A stretch of DNA of 64,000 nucleotides from Apostichopus japonicus. Taxonomy: Eukaryota > Echinodermata > Holothuroidea > Aspidochirotida > Stichopodidae. A model generated the notes under the pieces. The model worked only from the letters and a program-made list of their open reading frames with translations, did no database searches and was not told the origin of the DNA. The stretch spans positions 13,054,769-13,118,768 of the forward strand of contig NC_092572.1 of assembly GCF_037975245.1 (NCBI RefSeq), given 5' to 3'. This document shows positions 28,701 through 61,772 of this stretch, in pieces. A program made the position numbers and the translations under genes. The first letter of the stretch is position 1; each line of letters opens with the position of its first letter.

Positions 28701-31700
28701 AAGATTACTCCAGTCACAATGATTTTCACCTAAGGTGCATCCTAGCTTCATGATTGTGTATGTTGCTGGTTCTCTGTCAGCACTCTTATTAGTTCACTAT
28801 TCGTCCAGTATTTGTTTATTCGTCGCTTCAATATTTTTTTCAAAGATATCTGTGAATTACTTGACCATGAATATTTGTATGGTCATTACTCAAGCTCAAG
28901 ACATTAATTGCTATTCTTACAGTACAGAATTGGGACAATTTCCTTACAAAGATGTTTACCTTTTGGAAGTTTCAGTAGGAGGGGATAGTTTGCCCTGTAG
29001 GTCCTTTGACTTGGTGAAATAGTTTAGGAACAACCACTATAGGACATGTGTAGGAATATCCACAAGTCTGGTCAGATTTATCTTGCACCTCTTGTCCTGT
29101 ACCTGTGCCTCTCTATCAATTTGATCCTGTTGAGTGTCTGAAAATAATTCTATTGTGTTAGCACAATGAGTAAGTGCTCACTCGTTTAGAAAACCTAACA
29201 GTAAGTTTAAGTTGCTAATTATTTAGTATATAAGCAACCTGTTACATGTTTCTGACTTTTGCAATTATCAGTCAAGTCATGTTTCGTTCAAATCTGTAAT
29301 ATACTCAGTATCTGCACATGAGGAATATTGACACTAAAGTATGAATGTTGTCACTCTCAGGGATGTTACCAGGATAAGTTGAGTGTTGCCACCAAGTTTT
29401 CAATATCTATGCTGTGTAATTTTGGTCATTGTGTTAAAATGTCTTGAATCTTCCCAACCTGATGGACTCGTGGTAGTTGGCAAGTGCCCCGATCTACCCA
29501 ATCCTAAGAACTCGTAATTACCTTCTTCCACTGCGCCCCCAACGACCCTCTCTGAGGTCTCCACTATCTGTCTTCAGAATATACAATTGTGATATCTCAC
29601 ACTCTTGGTTTTCATGATGTCAGAGTTTAAATGATTTTCTCAGAAAAAGTCAAGAGTACCCAGTCGTTGCCGACCAAACAGCCAATAGCGTAGCTTTATC
29701 ACTTATCTGCTTGTTTCTGTAGTTCCTGTCCATAAGAGGCTGTCTGTTCCCGCAGAGATGACACATTCCATTACGCTCGTAGACGAAAGCGGTTCCTGGT
29801 GTGAAAACGGTATTGAGGTAAATCTGCTACCAATGACGATGTTTTACTGTTGCTACTTTATCGTTCTTGATCAAGTAATAGCTCAACCTTGCTTCATGTT
29901 GGTTTGAGAGAAATATTTATCACAGCATGTGTGTAATTATGGAAAATGGCAGACATTTAGTGAGTTCATTCTTGTACTTGTATCCTAGCATCGTTACATT
30001 TACTCATACTTGTTCTTGTTGATTTTTACCAGTATATATATGCTGCACTCCTGCTACTTTTAATAGTATTGTAGGACTCAGTGCAAAATTACATACTCGA
30101 ACTCATGCTCATAGCCGTGTCCTCTTACTTGTACCAATTACAAAGGAAATTCTACTTGTACTCGTAGAACGCAAATAGCCTAGTACTTTTAACCATACCA
30201 ATTACAAGGGAAAATCTACTTGTACTGGTAGTTTTGCTTATAGTCTTGTACTTTTAACCATACCAATGAAAATGGGAATTCTACTTGTACTCTTAGTTAT
30301 GCTGATAGTCTTGTACTTTTAACCATACCAATTAAAAGGGGAATTCTACTTGTACTCTTACCGTAGTTATGCTTATAGTCTTGTACTTTTAACCATACCA
30401 ATGAAAATGGGAATTCTACTTGTACTCTTAGTTATGCTGATAGTCTTGTACTTTTATCCATACCAATTAAAAGGGGAATTCTACTTGTACTCTTACTGTA
30501 GTTATGCTTATAGTCTTGTACTTTTAACCATACCATTTACAAGGGAAATTCTTCTTGTACTCGTTGTTATGCTTATAGTCTTGTACTTTTAACTGTACCA
30601 TTTACAAGAGAAATTCTTCTTGTACTTGTTGTTATGCTTATAGCCTTGTACTTTTAACCATACCAATTACAAGGGAAATTCTACTTGTACTCTTAGTTAT
30701 GCTTATATAGCCTTGTACTTTTACTTGTACCAATTACAAGGGGAATTCTACTTGTACGTACTTAAACTCATCTTGTTTTCCTTGTTCTACAATTCTCTAG
30801 TACAGTAATGAAATCGTAAATTTCAAAAAATAACAATCAATGTGATGAAGAATTGACTTTGAAAATTGAAAAGCAAGCTTCGTTTGAAGGTTATGGTCAT
30901 TATTCATGGTGCAAGTTTGGTTGATTCAAGTGATTGATTATATATATATTTATTTTACCATTATCTTTCCATTTTATGTGAAATAATATTATTGCCAGAT
31001 GTTAACAAATGCAGTTCGAAAATGTAGCTCTAATAGAATCGAATTGGAATCATTTTTAAATTATGGAACATGTTTTAAATTTTTAAATTAATGATAGAAC
31101 ATGTTAAGAAAAAATGTAACAATTTACAAAACTAAAACATTTCAACTGGTTATGTCCGGTAGATGTTACTGGACCTTACCGACTACTTGGTTGTTGGAGT
31201 TCTTGGCATGCAGGGAAGTGGAAAATCAACCGTGATGTCATTTCTTGCTGGAAATGACATCAGTGACAACAAAAGGTACAGTATAGCAACCGGTTTAAAT
31301 AGAGGACACAAAAAAAAGGAAAAAAAGGAAGAAATGAAGAAACAAAAAGGGATAAAAAAGAGGGAATAAAAAAGGAAAAAAGAAAAAGAAAAAAAACAAA
31401 CTGAAACAAAAAGAAACAAAAAGATAAAAAATGAAAAAAGAGAAAAAAAAAGGGAAAAATTAAAAAAAGAGGAAAAAATGAAGAAAAAAAAAAGAAACAG
31501 AAAGGGAAAAAAAGAAAAAAAAGGGAAGAAAAAAGGAAAAAAGAAAGAAAAAGAAAAAAAACAAAATGAAAAAAGAGAAAAAAAAAGGAAAAAAAAAAGA
31601 AAAAAAAAAGAAAAAAAAGGAAAAAAAGAAAAGAAAAAGACCGAAAAGAAAAGAAGGAAAGAAAAAAAGAAAAAAAAGGGGTGTGGGGGGGGGGGGGGGT

Positions 31701-37700: not shown

Positions 37701-40700
37701 TGTGACTTCTGATGGATGTGAAACTATATAGACCATGTTTGACAAGACACTTTGTTCAGTTCCTGTTCAAAAGAAAGAAATTATTTTGCTTTTTTGATAC
37801 GTTTCATTGTGGAATAGAATAACCACCAATGTAGACTGTTTCAGTCATGAATGTCTTTTCCTTCCAATCTTTGGAAAGAATTCTTTTTCTGCAGATGTTG
37901 CTGTTAGACATAAAGCATTTTTTTTGGTCAATCTTGATGTAATTTGGCATTTTGAAAGAGAAAAAAAATGATAGAAAGAGAAAAGTGACCCTGTCTGTTA
38001 AAAGTAGAAGCCTCGTGCATGATTTTAGTTTTAGGTTTTCTTTCGTCTTGCAAGTTCAATCAATCTTAACAAATCCATTGTTACTGATGTGATTGTTGTT
38101 GGCCACGTGCTTCTTATTTACGTCCCGTCTCTCTCGCTCCTCCGACCGGAAATTCTTGACGCCAAATCTAACGATGGAGACGAAGAACGGAAAGCCCAAG
38201 ACGTAGAGCGAAAATCCCAGAAGTCTAAAAATTACCGGCGCTTTCTGATCTGGGAGATAAACATTCATGAGATATGTCCCTACGATCAAACGACAGGCAA
38301 CGAAGAGGGCCGTCCCGATAACATAGATTGAGAAACATACGGTCCTTCTCATCTTCCCTTCCTTTGGTAAGAAACGCTGCGCTATCAGAAAGGGCGTGGT
38401 CATCTCAGTTCCGCAGATGATGATTGAGATCTCGGTCCCGGAGACCTGGAGGTAGAGGCAGGTCGCGAGTCCGTACCAGGTCACAACATGGTGGAGGAGC
38501 ATGACCTTGCTGGTCTTGGCCCAGTGCCAGATGTAGTACAGTGTGTCGAAGGTGTAGTACCCCAAGCAGGCACAGACTGTTATGTTCTCATGGACGGTAT
38601 TGGGTCCGGCTGCGGAGCAAAAAATATTGAAGTGCGGTCACGACGGTGGTTAATGATGATACAGTTATACACAGTTTAGTTAATGTTTAGTTAAGTAAAG
38701 GTTTACAGGACTTCTGGTATCAAGGCAAGGCCTTCTCACATGACTTGTACAATGTTTTACAATGCCTGGTCAGTCATTGGTGGCCTGACGCACCCACACA
38801 CCCCAAGTGTCAACAATTCAGACAGTTCCTTCTGGGGTCGGACAGTGTGCCACATCGCGTGTCCCCCCAGGGGAATTCACATACAGTACTTTAAGAGTAC
38901 AGGACACAAACCAGCCCACACCTCCACATTTACAAGTTACCTTGCAGGTCCCAATTTATATATACACCTGGGTAAAGAGAGGCAATGGAGAGTAAAATGC
39001 ATTGCCCAAAGATGCAATGCAATGGTCTGGCCAGGGCTTGAATCTGCAATCCTTACATCAGTGCATTACCCAAAGATGCAATATAATGGTCTGGCCAGGG
39101 CTTGAACCTGCAATCCTTAGATTAGTGCATTGCCCAAAGATGCAATGTAATGGTCTGGCCAGGGCTTGAACCTGCAATCCTTACATCAGTACATTACCCA
39201 AAGATGCAATGTAATGGTCTGGCCAGGGCTTGAACCTGCAATCCTTAGAATAGTGCTTTGCCCAAAGATGCAATGGAATGGTCTGGCCAGGGCTTGAACC
39301 TGCAATCCTTAGATTAGTGCATTGCCCAAAGATGAAATGTCATGGTCTGGCCAGGGCTTGAACCTGCAATCCTTACATCAGTGCATTACCCACAGATGCA
39401 ATGTAATGGTCTGGCCAGGGCTTGAACCTGCAATCCTTAGAATTAGGGATGCACCGGATATCCGGTCCGGCCGGACTATCCGGCCGGATAGTGAGAAATT
39501 ATCCGGTTCCGGCCGGATATTTTTCAAAATCTGGCCGGATCTTTTTCAAAATCTGCACTGCATTATTCCTTGAAAAGGTGTTGGTATTAACTTAAATCAA
39601 TGTAAACTATTTCCAAAAATTAATAAAAACATTCAAAGTAAGGAAAACTTAGGTTAACATACATGTTTAATTAATTTTCTCACTGGTCTGACCCACTGTT
39701 TCTAAAGATCAACCAAAATAATACAACTACTGTAATAATATGAAGAGCTCTATATATACAACAAATACAGTTTGCAGTGAAATCATTTCTTGCAGCCTTC
39801 ATCAGTTTAATATTGTGCAGTTAAAATAGACCACTCATATACTTATCAGTCAAAATACTGTTCCATTGAATCTTTACTTTCCCATTATTGTTGGCATTCA
39901 TGTTTTCTCTGAATTTTTATGTGTGAAACAATCTCTTATATGGTCAGAGAGAAACACTTGCATGAAATGAAATGTTCAAAATCCAAACATGTGCATTAGG
40001 ACCTTAAGAATTCAAAACAATGGATCTTTTTGTGGACCACTACAGTCCATTTCCTGTCTAGAAAGCTGACAATTGTTACTCATTGTTTGTGCTCATGGCA
40101 ATATGCATATTGTAATCTTGGCACTTTTATAAATAAATGAAGCAATGAACTAGAAGAGTTTCCACCAAATGGGGTGCCAGTCACAGACAAAACAGTATCT
40201 AATTTTCTCACAGAAAGAGATATCTCTTGTCACCATGAAAGTTCCTAAAAGTTCATGAAAAACCTAAATCATTAAGTGTTCTAATGAACATTCAATTCCA
40301 TTTTAAAGGATAGATAAAAGATAGATAAGAAGTTTCTTCCACTTCTGGAAAGATACAATGCTTTTTTTTTTTTACAGATAATATTGCAGTGTAAAAATTT
40401 GTTACCAAATAATGAATAATAAAAGACAATTCTAAATCCTGATAGTAGTGTTACTACAACAATTAAATAATCTTTTTATTCAGTATAAAGTATGAGATTT
40501 GTGAAATGTAGCTTCCCGTTTTAAAACAAACTTTCCTCCCCTTCAGAAAATCACCTCTAACAACCACAACATTCTCCTCACTTCAGATAGACTCCAACGA
40601 GCCGTCCCTGAAAAACCCATCATCGCCTACAGACGACCACGCAACCTACGAGACCTTCTTGTACGTGCTGCTGTTCCACCTCTAACTTCTAACCCCACAC

Positions 40701-43700
40701 CCATTCAGCATGGTACCTTCAAATGTGATCGTACTTCGAGATGCATCGTCTGCAGCCACCACATTGTTGAATCCAATTCCATCACCAGCCACAGCATGCA
40801 ACTCACACACAAGACTAAGGGTCACATCACTTGCACTACCACCAATGTCATCTATCTGATCTCTTGTAGAGTTTGCGGCATCCAGTATGTTGGCGAAACC
40901 AAAACCACCCTCAAGAAGCGATTCTATGGTCACAGATCCACAGTCAACACCATGAAGACTGAGACCCCAGTTGGAGAACATTTTAACCTTCCCAACCATA
41001 CCATTAACGACATGTCCCTACAGGGGATTGAATCCTTAGGTAGCCGTCCTGACCTAGTACGTATCAGCAGAGAGAGGCTCTGGATGCAACGCCTTCGTAC
41101 CATTCAACCTCATGGGCTGAACATTCAGGAAGGACATGACTAACTTTCCTCTGTTCCCTACTCCTTCTCCCCTTTCTCCCTCCCCCCCTTTCACTCTTCC
41201 TCTCACAGCTCTCTTCCCCTCCATTTTTCTTCACACCTTTCTGTCTTTGTCCCTCTCCAGTTTATTCCTTACCCTGTGCCTTTAATCCTCTCTTTGTCCC
41301 TCCACAGTTTATCTCCTTCCTCTCCTCTTCTCCTGTTGCTTTCTACTTATAATCCCCTTTCATCCATCTCATTGTGTTCACCGTGCTCATTAACCTGTCT
41401 GTATTCTGTGCGTGTTTTTGTCCCCTCTGTTACTGTAACTTGTCATTTAGCCTCTGAAGAAGATCCTGCTAGGATCGAAACGTCAGGCCAACTTACTTTT
41501 ACACATTAAAACAAACTTCATAGGTAGTATGCAGTATTTTTCAGCAAACAAATTTATATACTGTATCAAGCTTGTCAATTTTATTGTAGTTATTTTATTA
41601 AAGAATGTAGATTACACCACTTCAAGTCATATTTAATCTCATAAATGGGGTCTTAATTTCACCTTCTTTATAATATGCGTATACCTCACCTAAGATTTGC
41701 TCCTTGTTTCATACTTCTACTTCTTATTTATGATTTTCTTTTGTGTTATGAAAAAATCCGGTTCTGGCCGGATTTTATCCGGCCGGATTTCATGTACTAT
41801 CCGGCAAAATCCGGTTCCGGCCGGATCCAAAAATTTGGATCCGGTGCATCCCTACTTAGAATAGTGCATTACCCAAAGATGCGATGTAATGGTCTGGCCA
41901 GGGCTTGAACCTACAATCCTTACATCAGTGCATTACCCAAAGATGCAATGTAATGGTCTGGCCAGGGCTTGAACCTGCAATCCTTAGAATAGTGCATTGC
42001 CCAAAGATGCAATGTAATGGTCTGGCCAGGGCTTGAACCTGCCATCCTTAGAATAGTGCATTGCCAAAAGATGCAATGGAATGGTCTGGCCAGGACTTGA
42101 ACCTGCAATCCTTACATCACAAGTCAATTACCTTAGCCAATTACCACGAGGACGTAGACCACACTCAACTGCAGCTCATAACTTAAGGCGCTGAGGTACT
42201 AAGAACATAATATTTAGTTGTATCTTTGCAGTCATTCATTGTCTTTTAAGATGCCTTTTAGGATAAAGAAAAATATCCTCCCTGCCACCATTCCCATGAA
42301 AGTTCTCACAAACTGATAGAATTGTAGACTTCTCAACTTCTTAATTTGGAACTGATAGAAGGAATTAATCATGCTCAAAGCACATTGATCAGTATCGACA
42401 CCAAACGATGGCTTGTTGAAAAAGTTGAAAAGTTTGTCTAAAAGTTGATATCGTCAAACCTCCCTGGAGGAACTGAACATTCAGATCATTCCATGGAGAC
42501 AACTAGAAATCTAATAAATGTCTCTGTGAATTAGGAAAATCTTTTGAAATTTTAAAGAAGATGTTCAAATGGCTATTAAAGCATTAGCCCTAAATGGCCA
42601 TTGTTAGACTCTCTTGCATATTCTGGGGCAGCACTGTTGAAAAAACAGGAAAAAAATACAAATGACCCCACTTACATCATATCTGTTCGTTGTAATCTCA
42701 CAATAAGTTAGTCATTGGCTCATTTACTGACTTTCTACAGTCTTTGAACAAAGTTATCAGATAACCATCGACCAACGGCCATTGAGGTTGTGTACTGTGG
42801 TGTGGCATGGTTTACAACAAACAATGAACTTGATAATAATGTGGTCTTTGCGAAGACTAATACAGAGTACTCTTGAAGTCGTCGGTGTTTAAACGCCCAG
42901 TGAAGTGTCAACATGTTGTCTAAATAATCAGTTCGGCGACCGTTTCGTGTCATTAATGCTAGAAACAATAGCTACTTTACCTGTTAGCAGTAAACAGTCT
43001 TGTCAAGATAACAAGTCCAAGGTATTAAAATATTAATAATTTACTCATCTGGTTTATGTATAATCTCCCGGCCAGTTTACTGTTCTTTATATACATTAAA
43101 AAAAAAATGAAGAAATCATGTTTTCTATGAGAGGTTTCTATAGTTTAGATTCAGAGTTGCCAAACCCCCATCTTCATTACAAAAAATAAACATTGCAATT
43201 AATAAAGAAGATCATATAATACAGAAGATAAATATTGTAATAAAAAAGAGAACTCATTTAGTATATAAAGGAAAAGTATTAAAAGAATGAAGCACATGTA
43301 GCTTGATGATGTCATATTTAGACTTGATCAAGTCCTCAGCCTTGTGTGAAAATGAAACATTAAAATCTGTGATATCTCTCAGATAAAATAAGTTTGTTCT
43401 AAAACTGTTTCGGGAAGTTGTTCTTAACATTGTTATCTCTATGATGGTTGGGTTTGTGTGTACTGTCAGTACAGTACGCTCACTGTTGTTCCATTATGGG
43501 ATATATATATATATATCCTACTTCCCATCTGGGAAACTGTCATTTTGTAAAGAAGGCTAAAACAAAATTGAACCTCAGTCCAAAAAATATCAAGATTGAT
43601 CTTTTCTACTTACATCTGTCTGTGAAGAATGAAGGGTTGTAGTAGCGGATGAAAATAAAGCTCATGATTACGAGGGCGGAGGAATTTATTGCCACGTTGA

Positions 43701-46700: not shown

Positions 46701-49700
46701 TTGAATCAAGTAACTATAAAAATTGTGAAATTGTAGGTCCGATAACTTGCCTACATGTAGTGAACTAGGTTTTTCCTCCACTGTTTTCAACTATATTATG
46801 TCAGGAACTTGAATCGATATTTCCTCAGCTGGGTTGCAGTCAGTTTGGATAGTTTATATGTTTTCAAAACAGTTTCTTTTTCCGAGAGGGATGTGATTGT
46901 AATTGATATCATTTGCTTGAGTTGGTTGTGATATCAAAAAACTGTCAGTTTGGTTTAAATATAAAATAATGTCATAGACAGATTTGAGGATTTTTGTGGT
47001 ACAGTTTTTGTTTCCGTAGACTGTCTTTCCTCTCTGATCCTTTTTGGTTGCCTGACATCATAAACCTTTGCAATAATCGTGATGGTGTGTGTGTGTATGT
47101 GTGTATTTATACAGTATGTGCGTGTATGTATGTGTGTGATGTTTTGATCTTCACTTTCTGTGCTCAATCTGACACAACGAAGGCTAAAACACGCTCGATA
47201 AAGTTAACAATGATTTAATGACGTCCTCATGCTTCGCTTGACAACCACAGAGTGGTGTCATACAAGTAAACAAGCTTCCATAACATTACATGTGGGACGC
47301 CTTGCTTGCAAGAATACAATATATGTGACAGCCATTATAGTAATGCTCTCAACAAACAATGGTATTAGCTAGACAACATGATAATATGCCCAGGACTATA
47401 TGGCAACAGTTTACCATGGTTTACAATAATATATGACAAGTGTATTCCCTGATTAATATGACATTGTGACGGTTGAAAGATGACAATATATGTCCCAGAC
47501 ACAGAACAATGCTATTGATGTAGTAATGGTATATATCTGAGCTTCAGAATATATAGTGATATATATATGCCCTACAAGATATACAGCCTAGTAGACAATA
47601 TTGCTATATGCCATGATTGATATATATGGCAGTTTCCACTTGAGAGGTTGTCAAAGCTGTCCTAAAACAATGTATGGCTTTATATGCCCTGCCGTAACAG
47701 TAAGGACAATATCCGTCTGCAATGATATTGTAATTATTATGATGTGGACAATATTGCAATATGCCCTATACATCATTTTAATATGCCCTGGACAGTATGG
47801 CAATTTCACTGGACGATACAGCAATATGCCCTATACAGCACTTAAAATGCCCTGGAGAGTATGACAATTTTCACTCAACGATATGGCAATAATGCCATAT
47901 TGACAACATACCCTGTTACCGAACAATATGACACTTTCCTCTGAATCATATAAATGGCTATATTAAACGTGACCAACATGCCATCTTCAAAATAGCTGCA
48001 ACATGCTGTGGAAGATACATATATACAATCTGCATTGGGCACATTTTGTAAGCTGGGGACAATATTGTAGTGTGCCTGGACAATGTGATAAATTATGTCT
48101 TTAAGTACTGGACAATATGTTCATATGTTGTTACGTAGTGTGGGGTAATAAGTTCAAGACAGTGTCATTCGTTGCTTTTCTTCCTTTATTTTTCAGACTC
48201 CACAAAAAGCCACTGCTTCCTTTCACAATTAACTAACATCAATTCTCCATTACAACCTCTGCTTCCTTGCAACACTATCCTCGCTATCTTCCAACACTCC
48301 CTTATGCTTCTCTCCTTTTCTCGTCTCCTCCTAATACCTTGGCTCCTCACCTCACAAAAGCCACATTCCAACTGCTGTAAACCCCTCTCCTCATCTCTAG
48401 CTCTATCCTTTAATCCTATTAGCAAGTCTTTACATGTCTAAGTAATCCCAGCTTTGGAATCCCCTTAAGCTATCCCTAGGACATAAGCAGCTTTCCTCTC
48501 CTTACTTGTAGACTTCACAACATATGTCATCAGCTCTTTCTGATATACCTGATTTCATTTTCTCTTAGTACTACATTTCATGACTGCTATATGGAACATC
48601 AACCTGCTAGCAACTAGGCCACAGAGCAGTTATTTCATGGGGTGATGACTAAGTTTATATTTTCATTTCACTTCACTACATTTTTTGTCTCATTTTTATC
48701 AGGATGTTCCTCCTTAGCGAGGGCCAACATTATGCCCAGCCTCTCATCAGCAACTCTGCCTCTCGACGTCAACCTCTTCTTGATACCACATTTCCATGAC
48801 AACGAAACTGATATTACTGCTATATACAATAATGGTGAGTACAATCTCGATTTATGTCACAAGTTTGATGTATAATGAGCGTTCAGTATTGAATTTGACT
48901 AGTATGAATTTAGCAAAACTGGGAGGGGGGAGGAGAGGGGTTGGGAATGGGAAGGAGCAACTGGGAAGGGGCAGTAGGATGCGGGAAGGTAAATGGTGAG
49001 ATGTGAATGGGAGGGCTATTTTCCTTCATGATACCATCAGTTAGTGCACAATTGTAAGATTGCTTCCCAGTGTTTTATCATAGCATGGGGGGGGGAGTTG
49101 AAAGGATAGAAAGTTGCCCTTGAGGTATTGTGTCAAATATGCCTTTAAAGTAATATATTGACTTTGAGAGGAGAGCTTTAAAATAGTAATATGGTAATAT
49201 TTTTTTGCTTTTAGTGTGAAGGCAAAACGTTTCCGCTTTTCGAAACTACTTTGCGTAATCACTCTGTTTCCCTGTCACAAAGATCAATGCGAATTCCACA
49301 ACCTTTTTAATGTTTTGTCATTCTTTCCACGATTCTTTGATTGTTTTCTGCCACTTGCAGGTCAGTCCATTTTGTACAGCCTTCTGCCTAATAAGGTCAA
49401 AGGTCACCCACGGACGGAAACCCTGGTCAGGTGTTTCAGAAACCAGATCTTTGGAGCGGCGCGTTATCCACTGACTCACACATCTTTGACCGAGAAAAAC
49501 TGGTATGTACGGATACCTATCCTGATGACGTATCTGAAAGTCATTCATGCATCAAGTCAATATTCCTCTAGGGTACAGTTGCTCTCTGTTAACTATTCCC
49601 CCCCCCCCCCCATTCCCACCCCCAGTTTTGTGCATTGTTATTAATGCTCCATTCTAACATGCCACACGTACAGCTGCTATTAACTGTACCTCACATTTGT

Positions 49701-55930: not shown

Positions 55931-58900
55931 ATGGCGGCTTCTAATCCACTCAAGTGTCATGTGCACCCAGTTGTTTTATTCAGTATTGTTGATTCCTTTG
56001 AAAGAAGAAGCGATGAAAATTGTCGAGTAATTGGGACACTTTTAGGTTCGTATTGGAATGGAGGTGGATTGGCTTAACTGAGCTAAGTGTTGTTCTTTCA
56101 CTTAATGTAATCGCAAAAGCAGAACACACTAGCATCCTAACGGACTCATTGTATGAGCTTTCTCACGCTAACGTTAGGCTAGGCCAACATATGGTGTACT
56201 GAGCAGTTGTGTACGTTACAGTGTGTCACAGTAGGCTACATTGTACCAATGCCTGTGAGAGTATGACGTTCGCTAATTGTCGGGTATTTTATCGGTGAGG
56301 CAATAGCTAGTAGGCTAGGGATATTTTTTAAGTTGAGGTCAGCTATATATTTTTACTCTAAATTATAACAAAATTAACTTAGCCTATAACTTAGTTAACT
56401 TTAAACTAAGATTCCAAAACTGTAAAAGAAAGTTCATCAATGACTTTACTTTACATTGCCAATTAACTATTATGCATGTTTGATTGATAGTCCATTATCA
56501 TGTGTGATTCTTTTTGTCCACAGGCACAAACATTCATGGTTCAATTGAAGTCACAAATTGTTTTTGTGTTCCACACAATGAATCTGAAGATGAGGTAAAT
56601 ATTGTCCATAGATACTGTATGTGAATTTGAATGATTGATCCAGAAGAAGCAATCTAATAATAATCATTTGCCTGTTACGAAAGAAAACTAAGCCTAGTAT
56701 CTAAGAGAAATTGTATTCCATTTGTTAGATATCGAAGATATTGTTAGATTATTTTTCTGGTTGAGACCATAAAAGGTTGTTGTTGAAGGCGTGCAAGTTT
56801 CCTTTCTATCATTTACCATTGATAGTTGGAACTAATGATAATGAAAATTGAAACTCATGCTAGCTGCATCATTAAAAATCTCTTTACTCTCTCATACATA
56901 TCAGGCCTAGAATTTCACAATTATAGCCACTTGCTAAAATTGCAAACTTGTGCTTAAAAAAATATACTGCTTAAAATCAAGTTCTCACTGGCAGTTTCCT
57001 GAAGTATAGCACAAATTAGTTACTGTACTGGCAGCTTAGAGCAGCACAATAGTATTTGTTTATTATAATTAGAAGTAATACAGGGCTTATTTAGGTATGG
57101 TAATCATGCCGATTCTTTGTTCACAACTTACCACACGTTTATATATTCTTGATATCTACTGGCAGCAAAATGCCAGTGCCCTATCTAATAGCTGACAGTA
57201 AATTCCACTACTATTTAACCTGTAAATAACCCCCAATCTGAGGCCAGCGTACAGTATGTCTAATCTCTCTGTCTCTCCTCTGTTCAGGTTGCTGTTGATA
57301 TGGAATTTGCAAAGAACATGTACGACCTTCACAGAAAAGTGAACCCCGTAGAAATGATTGTTGGCTGGTAAGTAGATCATTTTCAATCTTCCAGATGGTA
57401 GTTAGGTCTTATAGATAATTTCAGTGAACATATTACATAATACATACTGTATGTACCTGATTTCCAAACGGTACTTTAAATACAGCGCCAGTTTTATTTT
57501 TAAATTAAGCTTTAGTTTTATCTACATAATCCACATCAAGAGATGCAACAAATACTTGTCTTAGTTAAAGTGTATTGCAGAGTAGCTGTACACATGAAAG
57601 TATTGATTTTAATATTCATGATACAAATTATCTGTTGACATTTCTGACATAAAGTTATCTCTTGCTTAATTTTGTCCTTCTCAAAGGATGAATCAGTTGT
57701 TTGCCAAACTATGGAAACTGTATTCCTTTGTATGTTTCTCATTCAGGTGTAAAGGTTATCAAATTTATTAATTATCATTTTCTTTGAAGGTATGCTACCG
57801 GTCCGGACATCACAGATCATTCAGTGTTAATACACGACTACTACTCCAAGGAGTGTTTCAACCCCGTACATATCACAGTAGATACCACCGTTGAGAATCT
57901 TCGAATGAGCATGACGGTTTGGGTCAGGTGAGTCTTTAAGTTGAGTAAACTGTACATAACTTTGCCTCCAAAATTGATTTTCAATAGCGTCTGCTGACAA
58001 TTTCAAAGTGAAAACATCTAGGTACTTAGCAGAGATTTAATATGCAACACATGACTTGGTGATGTCACTAATCATCCTTTGCGAGATGGACACCAGTCTA
58101 TTGCAGAGTACCGATGTAGATGTAACTCGGTAGATACTGTACGTCATCCCATTGAAAGTATTTGAAATGCGCATGCCCCCATTATCTAGTCAAAATTGTA
58201 CAAAGTTTGAATTTGAAATAACTTATTGCAAAGATGGAAACAAAGAAAAAAGCAAGCCTCAATTGGAAAGTTTGATGCAATTCTTGTTTTTCTTTTCTCT
58301 TTCCTTTTCATGCAGGCAAAATATGGGTGTTCCCGAGAAGTCGCAAGGAACGGTCTTTGTCCCAATTCCACTTAAAATTACTTGCCATGAGCCCGAAAGA
58401 GTGGCGTGTAAGTTATATATTCAGGGAATAGTTTATCCTGTATCGCACTGCAAATGCTATGCAAAATGGTCAAACTGCTATACAAGTACAGAGATGTAGA
58501 GCAGCTTTTACTTTACACAGGAATACATAGTTTCTTATAAGAGACAAAATTTAGAGCCTTGAAAACTTCCTCATGAAATCTGAACAACTTTTTTTAAGTT
58601 ATTTTATGTTAAGTTACTATTAGTTAAGTAAATTCCCATAGTATTTATTAGTGCATTTATAACATCTGAGGCCTTATATTATTAAAAAAAAAAAAATTCA
58701 CGCTACAATCAGATGATTATCGATTGAAAAAGGAGAACATAAACAGGACCATGAGATGTAAGCCTTGCACCGTAACAATCCATGGTGAACAGTTTCTGCT
58801 TTAAACATGATAAAACAACTAGGAAAAGATCTTCACTCCACCAATGTTAAACTATACTAAACAGGTGGTCAAGTGGTTAAGGCAGTGGACTTGTGATCTA

Positions 58901-61772
58901 AGGATTACAGGTTCCAGCCCTGGCCAGATCATTGCGTTGCGTCCCTCGGGGGACACGTGGTTGTTGTGACCCAGGAGGGATTGATTGAATTGTGCACTCT
59001 TTGGGTGTGTAGGTGTGACACGTTACCAAAGACCAGGTTTAAGTTGTAAAGTCGTGTGAGAGGGCCTTGGCCTTGAACAAGACTGTAAACCTAAAATAAA
59101 AAATATAAAAAATAATAATAATAATAACAGGTCATTAGTATTTCTGTCACTTATGCTACGAATTTGCAGAATTATGTATAATTACCGTCCTTGGTGTTTT
59201 GAAATTAATTTCTAGACATTGAGCTTAGATGAGACATTATTGTATTGTGTACCATTTTTTTCCGTAGGGTTGGCAGCAAAATGTTTTGTGGTGAACTTGT
59301 GGTTTTTCTGAAGCTAATGTCCCTTTCTTGCGGATTTGAGGGCTTAACTAATCAGCTTTCATAGATTAGAATATCTCATAGTTTGCAAACTTTCGTCAGC
59401 TTCTCGTAACTGACTTGCCAGAGTTTTGCAACTGTTAGCTTACAGTAACATTAAACTGTGTCTGTCTGTCTGTCTGCCTGTAATAATTATACTATGTACA
59501 AGTGCTTGCTTTTGATTGTGATTTTTTCTCCAAACGAAGAATCTGACAAAACTGGTTCTTGATTGTCACAAGTGCAACTGACATTCTCATTGTCTGTTTT
59601 GTTTCGTGGATAAGTAAATCAGTTGTCATTTAAATAAGTTTTGCTAATTTACATATGTTTATACGTAATCAAAATGCGACCCTGTGAATGAAGAGATGCC
59701 TACATTTACCCTCAAAGCCTTCCTCTATGAGTAGATCAGCAGTTTGTTTACAGTTTTTTTTCTCTCTCTGGAAAGATGCCTTTCATTAATAATATCATTG
59801 TTATTTAAATAGGAACCTTCGGGGTTCGAAAGGTCGATATAGTTCAAGTAAATTCAAGTGAATTAGTAAATGTAGAGACTGGGAAAACATTACATATCAG
59901 GTTAAGTTATTCATTTCTTCTTGATGCGATTGTGTTGATTCTTCTCTCGTTTCAGTGGATACCTTAATCAGGGGTAAATCTTCTGGAGAAAGAAACATTG
60001 CACTCATTGATGATCTCTCCTACGTCAGCAAAGCGGCCAACAAGCTTCAAGATCTCTTGGACGTGGTCTTAAACTATGTTGATGAAGTCATCGTAAGTAT
60101 TCAGTATCAAGTTTTGATGTCCCATGACAGTACAAATCCACATTTACACAGATTCTTTCCGGTTACTAAAAGCATTTGGGTTGTGGAGGAGGGGGAGGGC
60201 TGGTAAGGGGAAATGGCATCCTTTTTGCTGTTGACACAGTTTTTTGTTTGTTTGGGGGGGGGGGGAGAGAAGGTGGGTGGGGGGGGGAAATGTCAATCGC
60301 TGTACTCTGTGGCACGTTTGTCAGCAGTTACCCAAGTGGAATCGAGTTAATTGTTCATGACATACAGGTTGTTTGGTATACTAATGGCTACTATATGTTC
60401 CTAATTTTCCACAATTTGTCAACATTTGACCTCATGCAGGTGACAAACTGATATAAACAGCTTGAATAGGGAGAAGGATCATCTATACAAGCAGCAGTGA
60501 ATTAAAGATTCCTGAAGTTATAACATCAAAATAGATAATATTAATATATAATATTAATCCTCCAATGTTGCTAACAAGTTTTTTTTTTCCTTTTTTTTCA
60601 CCCAGGCTGGCAGAATCTCAGCTGACAACCAAGTTGGACGTTATTTGATGGACCTGGTTGCCAAGGTACCTAAACTACAACCTGAAGACCTGGACCAGAT
60701 GCTCAATAACAGCATGAAGGTACGGTATGACTGGACCCCTTATATGTACAACTGTGTACTAGTACATGTAATAACAGCATGAAGGAACGGTATGACATGA
60801 CCCCTCATATGTAAACTGTACTAGTACATGTAATAACAGCATGAAGGTACGGTATGACAGGACCCCTCATATGTACAACTGTGTACTAGTACATGTAATA
60901 ACAGCATGAAGGTACGGTATGACAGGACCCCTCATATGTACAACTGTGTACTATTACATGTAATAACAGCATGAAGGTACGGTACGCCAGCACCCCTCAT
61001 ATGTACAACTGTGTACTAGTACATGTAATAACAGCATGAAGGTACGGTATGACAGGACCCCTCATATGTACAACTGTGTACTAGTACATGTAATAACAGC
61101 ATGAAGGTACGGTATGACAGGACCCCTCATATGTACAACTGTGTACTATTACATGTAATAACAGCATGAAGGTACGGTACGCCAGCACCCCTCATATGTA
61201 CAACTGTGTACTAGTACATGTAATACACAAATACTACAGTGCATTCCTACCATCCCCAAGCAATTGTACTCCTTTACAGGGATGAATGTGATCACATGAG
61301 TATCCCTAGAAAATATCACATGTGTTACATCACAATCCCATGATAAGCCTGATACCACATGCCAACCCATAGAAGCAGCCCCAAAAGCCTTAATCTGCCA
61401 ACAATTACAACTGGTTTACTGAATGCCAGGAGAGATAACCCCTATATTATTCCAAGGGGATTTAAACTACCACAATGGTTCCACACCGTCCACACAGAAG
61501 TCCCATTGATCCACAACTCTACAGTAACAGCGTATAACAGCATGAATGTATAAATGCTGTGTGAGTTCAATGTCTCCTTTATTGCTGTTTCAGCTGACAT
61601 CTATGATCTATCCCAGAATGCTATGTTACTGTCGAGTTCATACTTCCTTCTCTTCTTCGTTTCTCTTCAGGATCTCTTGATGGTTACATATCTCTCACAG
61701 TTAGTATCTACTCAGCTGAGCCTCAATGAAAACCTCACATCGATGGTCTCTAAAGGAATTGACAAGTTTTGA
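55931..61772 (+). CDS. EIF3F: Eukaryotic translation initiation factor 3 subunit F
   Basis: Eight coding exons: 55931-56045, 56524-56594, 57288-57367, 57790-57927, 58316-58407, 59956-60092, 60606-60719 and 61671-61772. All GT..AG and in phase, giving 282 aa, about the length of the conserved part of human eIF3f, without its Pro/Ala-rich N-terminal extension. It is an MPN-domain subunit of eIF3, which recruits the 43S complex to mRNA. Matches include [78 protein letters not shown] and [10 protein letters not shown]. The His-x-His and Asp ligands of active JAMM proteases are not conserved, as expected for a non-catalytic MPN subunit. Intron 7 begins with a minisatellite that copies the exon 7 end. 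Confidence 0.97.
58408..59955 (+). other. EIF3F intron 5
   Basis: It holds the SINE copy at 58862-59130 and otherwise no recognised feature. Confidence 0.5.
58862..59130 (+). mobile_element. tRNA-derived SINE, copy 3
   Basis: The head GTGGTCAAGTGGTTAAGGCA (A box) is followed by GGTTCCAGCCC (B box). The body CCTCGGGGGACACGTGG, then CTCTTTGGGTGTGTAGGTG matches the 3' domain of copy 2. A tail of AATAAAAAATATAAAAAATA and (AAT)n runs to about 59130. Same sense as EIF3F. Confidence 0.8.
60706..61224 (+). repeat. 65-bp minisatellite containing the EIF3F exon 7 end and donor
   Basis: Eight units, with the AGCATGAAG motif at 60711, 60776, 60838, 60903, 60968, 61033, 61098 and 61163. Spacing is 65 bp, except one of 62. 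The first unit begins in coding sequence: AATAACAGCATGAAG|GTACGG is the end of exon 7 and its donor. Most later units repeat AATAACAGCATGAAGGTACGG apart from single changes. Units 3-5 and 6-8 form a three-unit, 195-bp higher-order repeat: variants GACAGGACCC, GACAGGACCC with CTATTACATG, and CGCCAGCACC recur in the same order. Confidence 0.92.

Follow-up and report, generated by a model that had tools for sequence, protein, structure and literature searches.

The last intron of the EIF3F gene raises an unusual question: which splice donor serves the gene when the end of an exon, donor included, has been repeated many times over in the intron that follows? An earlier note had described a minisatellite that repeats the end of EIF3F exon 7 together with its donor, and this description is borne out. 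In the window, the whole 64-kb stretch of DNA analysed, Tandem Repeats Finder reports an array at 60705-61225 with a period of 65, 8.1 copies, 94% matches and a score of 937; when the surrounding 2.5 kb was shuffled 40 times with dinucleotides preserved, the best score was 47. The gene model comprises eight exons joined by GT-AG introns in a single frame. Over residues 10-273, its 282-aa product aligns with PDB chains of eIF3f (E values down to 1e-98), and it carries the Pfam domains JAB and MitMem_reg. The coding sequence has no further intron after intron 7 (60720-61670, 951 nt); the other introns measure 388-1548 nt as read from exon positions.

Table 1. Features of the EIF3F exon 7 to exon 8 region, in positions of the window (a slash marks the splice site)
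Feature	Position	Strand	Description
EIF3F exon 7	60606..60719	+	114 nt, 38 aa; spliced 8-exon model, eIF3f PDB match 1e-98
Unit 1	60705..60769	+	65 nt: last 15 nt of exon 7, true donor AAG/GTACGG, 50 nt of intron
Unit 2	60770..60831	+	62 nt; donor destroyed, AAG/GAACGG; most diverged unit
In-frame TGA by readthrough from exon 7	60780..60782	+	inside unit 2, ahead of any intact spare donor
Units 3-5	60832..61026	+	3 x 65 nt; intact donors 60847, 60912, 60977
Units 6-8	61027..61221	+	3 x 65 nt; intact donors 61042, 61107, 61172
MITE fragment	61221..61533	+	313 nt, internal part of ~705-bp terminal-inverted-repeat MITE; 95% to genomic copy
Partial ninth unit	61534..61550	+	ATAACAGCATGAATGTA, 17 nt, 94% to first 17 nt of unit 8
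EIF3F exon 8, last coding exon	61671..61772	+	33 codons + stop; acceptor TTTCTCTTCAG/GAT

Resolved unit by unit, the minisatellite occupies 60705-61221 and consists of eight units of 65, 62 and then six times 65 nt, which start at 60705, 60770, 60832, 60897, 60962, 61027, 61092 and 61157. Unit 1 opens with 15 exonic nucleotides (AATAACAGCATGAAG, 60705-60719) followed by GTACGG. Because the residues at the exon 7/8 junction align with a PDB eIF3f chain, unit 1 is the original exon end, and the proposal that the first donor is the true one stands. The exon end is indeed repeated from unit to unit, but the earlier picture of eight 65-bp units with a donor in each has to be revised: unit 2 is three nucleotides shorter and its GT has become GA, which leaves seven donors. 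This unit differs from the others in 7-10 alignment columns.

The seven intact donors, the true one and spares in six of the seven downstream units, are exceptionally uniform. All six spares carry exactly the 9-mer of the true donor, and the seven agree over 23 bases spanning the junction, lie 65-127 nt apart and face one common acceptor. On a simple weight matrix, whose weights approximate human values, each of the seven scores 4.1 and pairs with U1 at -6.8 kcal/mol; the next-best GT of intron 7, the ACG/GTATGA found five nucleotides past the donor in most units, scores 2.05 (-4.4 kcal/mol). Across the other GT sites of the intron the U1 duplex reaches at best -5.5 kcal/mol, and the array 9-mer tops every one of them; the other six EIF3F donors score between -0.2 and 8.3. 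The U1 RNA genes of the genome start with ATACTTACCTG, the usual sequence. Given an identical 9-mer and the best scores of the intron, the spare donors are competitors by sequence and are set apart mainly by position. As a separate observation, one U1 snRNA gene cluster (G000:C20:29019462-29087219) holds 42 scored genes on one strand, many of them about 856 bp apart.

Any use of a later donor is predicted to have the same consequence. Splicing from units 3-8 would insert 127, 192, 257, 322, 387 or 452 nt and would extend exon 7 from the 114 nt obtained through the first donor to 241-566 nt. The expectation that each unit adds 65 nt and always shifts the frame fails, since unit 2 contributes 62 nt and the inserts ending in units 4 (192 nt) and 7 (387 nt), these two only, keep the frame. 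The premature stop foreseen in the same note is nevertheless confirmed: the TGA in unit 2 precedes every intact spare donor, so it is reached whichever of them is used and the frame is irrelevant. The predicted readthrough product would retain 249 normal residues, add 20 new ones and lose the 33 residues of exon 8.

The mammalian rule for nonsense-mediated decay (NMD) requires the stop to precede a junction by over 50 nt. Intron 7 being the last intron, the exon 8 junction is the one downstream of the TGA, at distances of 64, 129, 194, 259, 324 and 389 nt for units 3-8. All six exceed 50 nt, by a rule that is mammalian and may not be that of echinoderms. Had unit 2 kept its donor, use of it would put 2 nt between stop and junction.

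A minisatellite with a unit of about 12 bp marks a donor of the human gene IFI6 (6-16, G1P3). This splice-donor minisatellite was reportedly described by Turri, Cuin and Porter in 1995 (NAR 23:1854). Two downstream units are reported to act as donors there and to give rise to three mRNA species (PMC4526556, citing that study; see also PMC2572611). As in IFI6, the EIF3F array stands at an exon end and places units that match the donor behind the first donor; it overlaps the junction, its unit 1 holds the regular donor, and six of the seven downstream donors are kept. By this analogy the EIF3F array is the same kind of object as the IFI6 minisatellite, which is its direct precedent. The two differ in unit size (65 bp in EIF3F), gene and phylum. 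Moreover, donor use and different isoforms are reported for IFI6, whereas the later donors of EIF3F, if used, would lead to a stop. Among other exon-end minisatellites, no case closer than IFI6 was found in the literature searched.

Were the EIF3F array to behave as IFI6 does, where downstream units can be donors (PMC4526556), several donors would be used and the gene would produce a ladder of transcripts destined mostly for NMD. Output would then fall roughly with copy number, as unregulated noise or load. Seven identical donors that outscore the rest of intron 7, followed in units 3-8 by a junction 64-389 nt beyond the TGA and hence past the 50-nt limit, speak for such an array. We still regard this outcome as unlikely, because selection against heavy mis-splicing is to be expected. 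In humans, eIF3f belongs to the core octamer of eIF3, and knocking it down destabilises the complex (PMC5159561), so heavy loss of EIF3F transcripts to NMD should be costly. In addition, the eight genome matches to the EIF3F protein are all exons of one locus, and a protein search of the whole 671.6-Mb genome found no retrocopy showing the spliced junction. With a single locus found, productive splicing has to be maintained. Some caution comes from mammals, in which competition between donors can be settled in favour of the intron-proximal site, as a function of SRSF1 and hnRNP A1 (PMC5585400); this makes substantial use of the later EIF3F donors plausible.

A regulatory role for the array is possible. 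The earlier suggestion that it sets productive against NMD-targeted splicing has to be lowered to that level by three results: ordinary folding, a nonsignificant test on the exonic part, and the loss of one spare donor. Relative to shuffles, the whole array folds with a z of about +0.6, and single units and a two-unit piece give z values from -0.3 to +1.1. The idea of a special RNA hairpin by which donors are masked or uncovered was discarded, predicted folding being no better than that of shuffles. The unit alignment contains 10 substitution columns out of 65 and one 3-nt gap. None of these falls in the 15-nt exon part, and the distribution of variable columns among units gives no significant indication of selection on that part (p about 0.07-0.12). 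Comparison of the units likewise showed no sign of selection for keeping spare donors, one of the seven having already been lost.

More specific is the idea of a regulated switch between productive and NMD-bound splicing, operating through eIF3f autoregulation or as a copy-number rheostat. The geometry permits it, and the lone destroyed spare, that of unit 2, is also the lone one that would escape the 50-nt rule, as expected if NMD-competent isoforms were selected. However, this coincidence has a prior chance of 1 in 7, and units at the edge of an array are usually the most decayed. The z values against shuffles reveal no special RNA structure, and the two blocks of the last amplification are still identical; an event that recent makes copy number look unconstrained. 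We consider a regulated switch highly improbable. In the rheostat version, extra donors would divert a length-dependent share of transcripts to NMD, array length would vary between individuals, and eIF3f output would vary heritably; we give this version very little credence. If it were true, translation capacity would vary heritably with array length.

The array itself carries a record of how it grew. Units 3-5 and units 6-8 agree at 195/195 positions, forming an exact three-unit higher-order repeat, and any two units within one block are separated by 1-4 differences. It follows that the three-unit block was recently duplicated or homogenised, and the recent unequal exchange claimed for this locus agrees with that identity. 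The exact 195-nt duplication suggests that copy number, too, has changed recently. In the genome searched (671,581,487 bases in 35 contigs), the array was found at the EIF3F locus only. A dispersed repeat or transposon was rejected as the source of the unit, because a 33-nt intron probe has no other copy at up to 3 mismatches genome-wide. A 23-nt probe spanning exon end and donor finds only five scattered sites elsewhere in the genome, each with 3 mismatches. Abundant genome matches to the region stem from the adjoining MITE fragment and not from the array.

This fragment bounds the array on the right and offers a relative date. It aligns with 384-695 of a 703-bp genomic copy (95% identity), so that ~380 bp are missing on the left and the final ~8 bp on the right. 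The MITE-like family to which it belongs is about 705 bp long, with terminal inverted repeats ATATTGTAACRCT...AGYGTTACAATAT, and its members are 90-95% identical to the fragment in the window. Among the matches listed there are at least about 40 relatives, and in some copies (L005 and L008 among L002-L008) the left half is variable or replaced. A partial ninth unit sits beyond the fragment, 313 nt from unit 8; read across the fragment, ...TACATGTAATA joined to ACAGCATGAA... gives back the unit sequence. The position of this ninth unit indicates that the array is probably older than the MITE insertion. An insertion with both ends intact was ruled out, as both ends are trimmed; the left break has TAATA microhomology. 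We infer that an early array would already have been present when the MITE inserted in AT-rich TAATA at a unit boundary. The left part of the element would then have been lost via TAATA microhomology and the right end would have shed a few bases, with the latest three-unit amplification following this trimming. Alternatively, the 17-nt match at 61534-61550 could reflect a direct repeat that was already in place and from which the array started.

We think it probable that the array is a tandem duplication of an exon junction in which the first donor is mostly used, and that it is near-neutral and yields minor unproductive RNA. A 65-bp segment that by chance spanned the exon 7/intron 7 junction would have been duplicated in tandem, privately at this locus, and would have grown by unequal exchange, the three-unit block being duplicated last. 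The first donor most likely serves most transcripts, since its use leaves exon 7 with 114 nt and no other donor would yield complete eIF3f. Exon definition would favour it too, given the lengths of the other EIF3F introns. Later donors, if used, would add 127-452 nt and an early stop, producing a minor amount of unproductive RNA. Since every unit has the same exon end at the same place, copies could be gained or lost without change to the protein, and the array would persist as near-neutral baggage.

The evidence for this near-neutral duplication includes confinement to one locus, the exact 195-nt repeat, ordinary folding, the lack of clear constraint and the lost donor. It also includes the single EIF3F locus and a minisatellite-rich window, in which other arrays with 64-65-bp units begin at 30132, 38998, 41855 and 47745. 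We count against it that the spare donors have the true 9-mer and outscore the other GTs of the intron. A regulatory story is the less likely of the two accounts.

Other repetitive systems resemble the EIF3F array in part. UBC and VCX3A contain tandem units with AG/GT whose copy number evolves by unequal exchange (PMC10809524); their units, unlike those of EIF3F, are coding, and in UBC are multiples of three. The EIF3F unit of 65 nt is not a multiple of three, units 2-8 are intronic, and 3' splice site features are lacking, with no pyrimidine tract before the AG (ACATGTAATAACAGCATGAAG). This last absence bears on the proposal that each AG/GT is dual-specific and that pieces of the array are spliced out in unit multiples, as in human polyubiquitin UBC. 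An AAG/GT is present in each intact unit, and the human genome is enriched for introns that are multiples of the surrounding repeat (PMC10809524). Yet the missing tract, together with the fact that removing whole units from an intron would show up in the mature mRNA only where a later donor had been used, leads us to rate this proposal as extremely improbable.

The ABCA7 intron 18 VNTR is likewise an intronic minisatellite, reported to alter splicing and expression with its length (PMC6660495). Its unit, however, is not described as containing a splice donor, and in human cohorts its length correlates with skipping of the following exon. Where introns are gained from duplicated AGGT segments (PMC4974935, PMC3443670), a tandem duplication over AG/GT is involved, as in EIF3F, but the EIF3F duplicates lengthen an existing intron and create no new one.

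The EIF3F array constitutes a natural test of donor choice. With the same 9-mer, the same 23 junction bases and one acceptor, donor use should hinge mainly on position, that is, on exon versus intron length and on transcription order, and the preference can be measured by junction counts outside the usual model animals. The array also shows how, in a core gene, a repeat can spread over a coding boundary and leave the protein unharmed, which is possible because one complete exon end is kept at each exchange.

The neighbouring minisatellites of the window merit a final observation. The 64-bp arrays at 38998-39439 and 41855-42116 have one unit in common, and over 38-50 nt the unit of the former shows 86-92% identity, on the minus strand, with a tRNA-like SINE-type sequence at 58841-59140, in EIF3F intron 5. 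Both minisatellites thus seem to have grown by amplification of a SINE piece. The arrays at 30132-30757 and 47745-47900 have 65-bp units whose sequences look unrelated.
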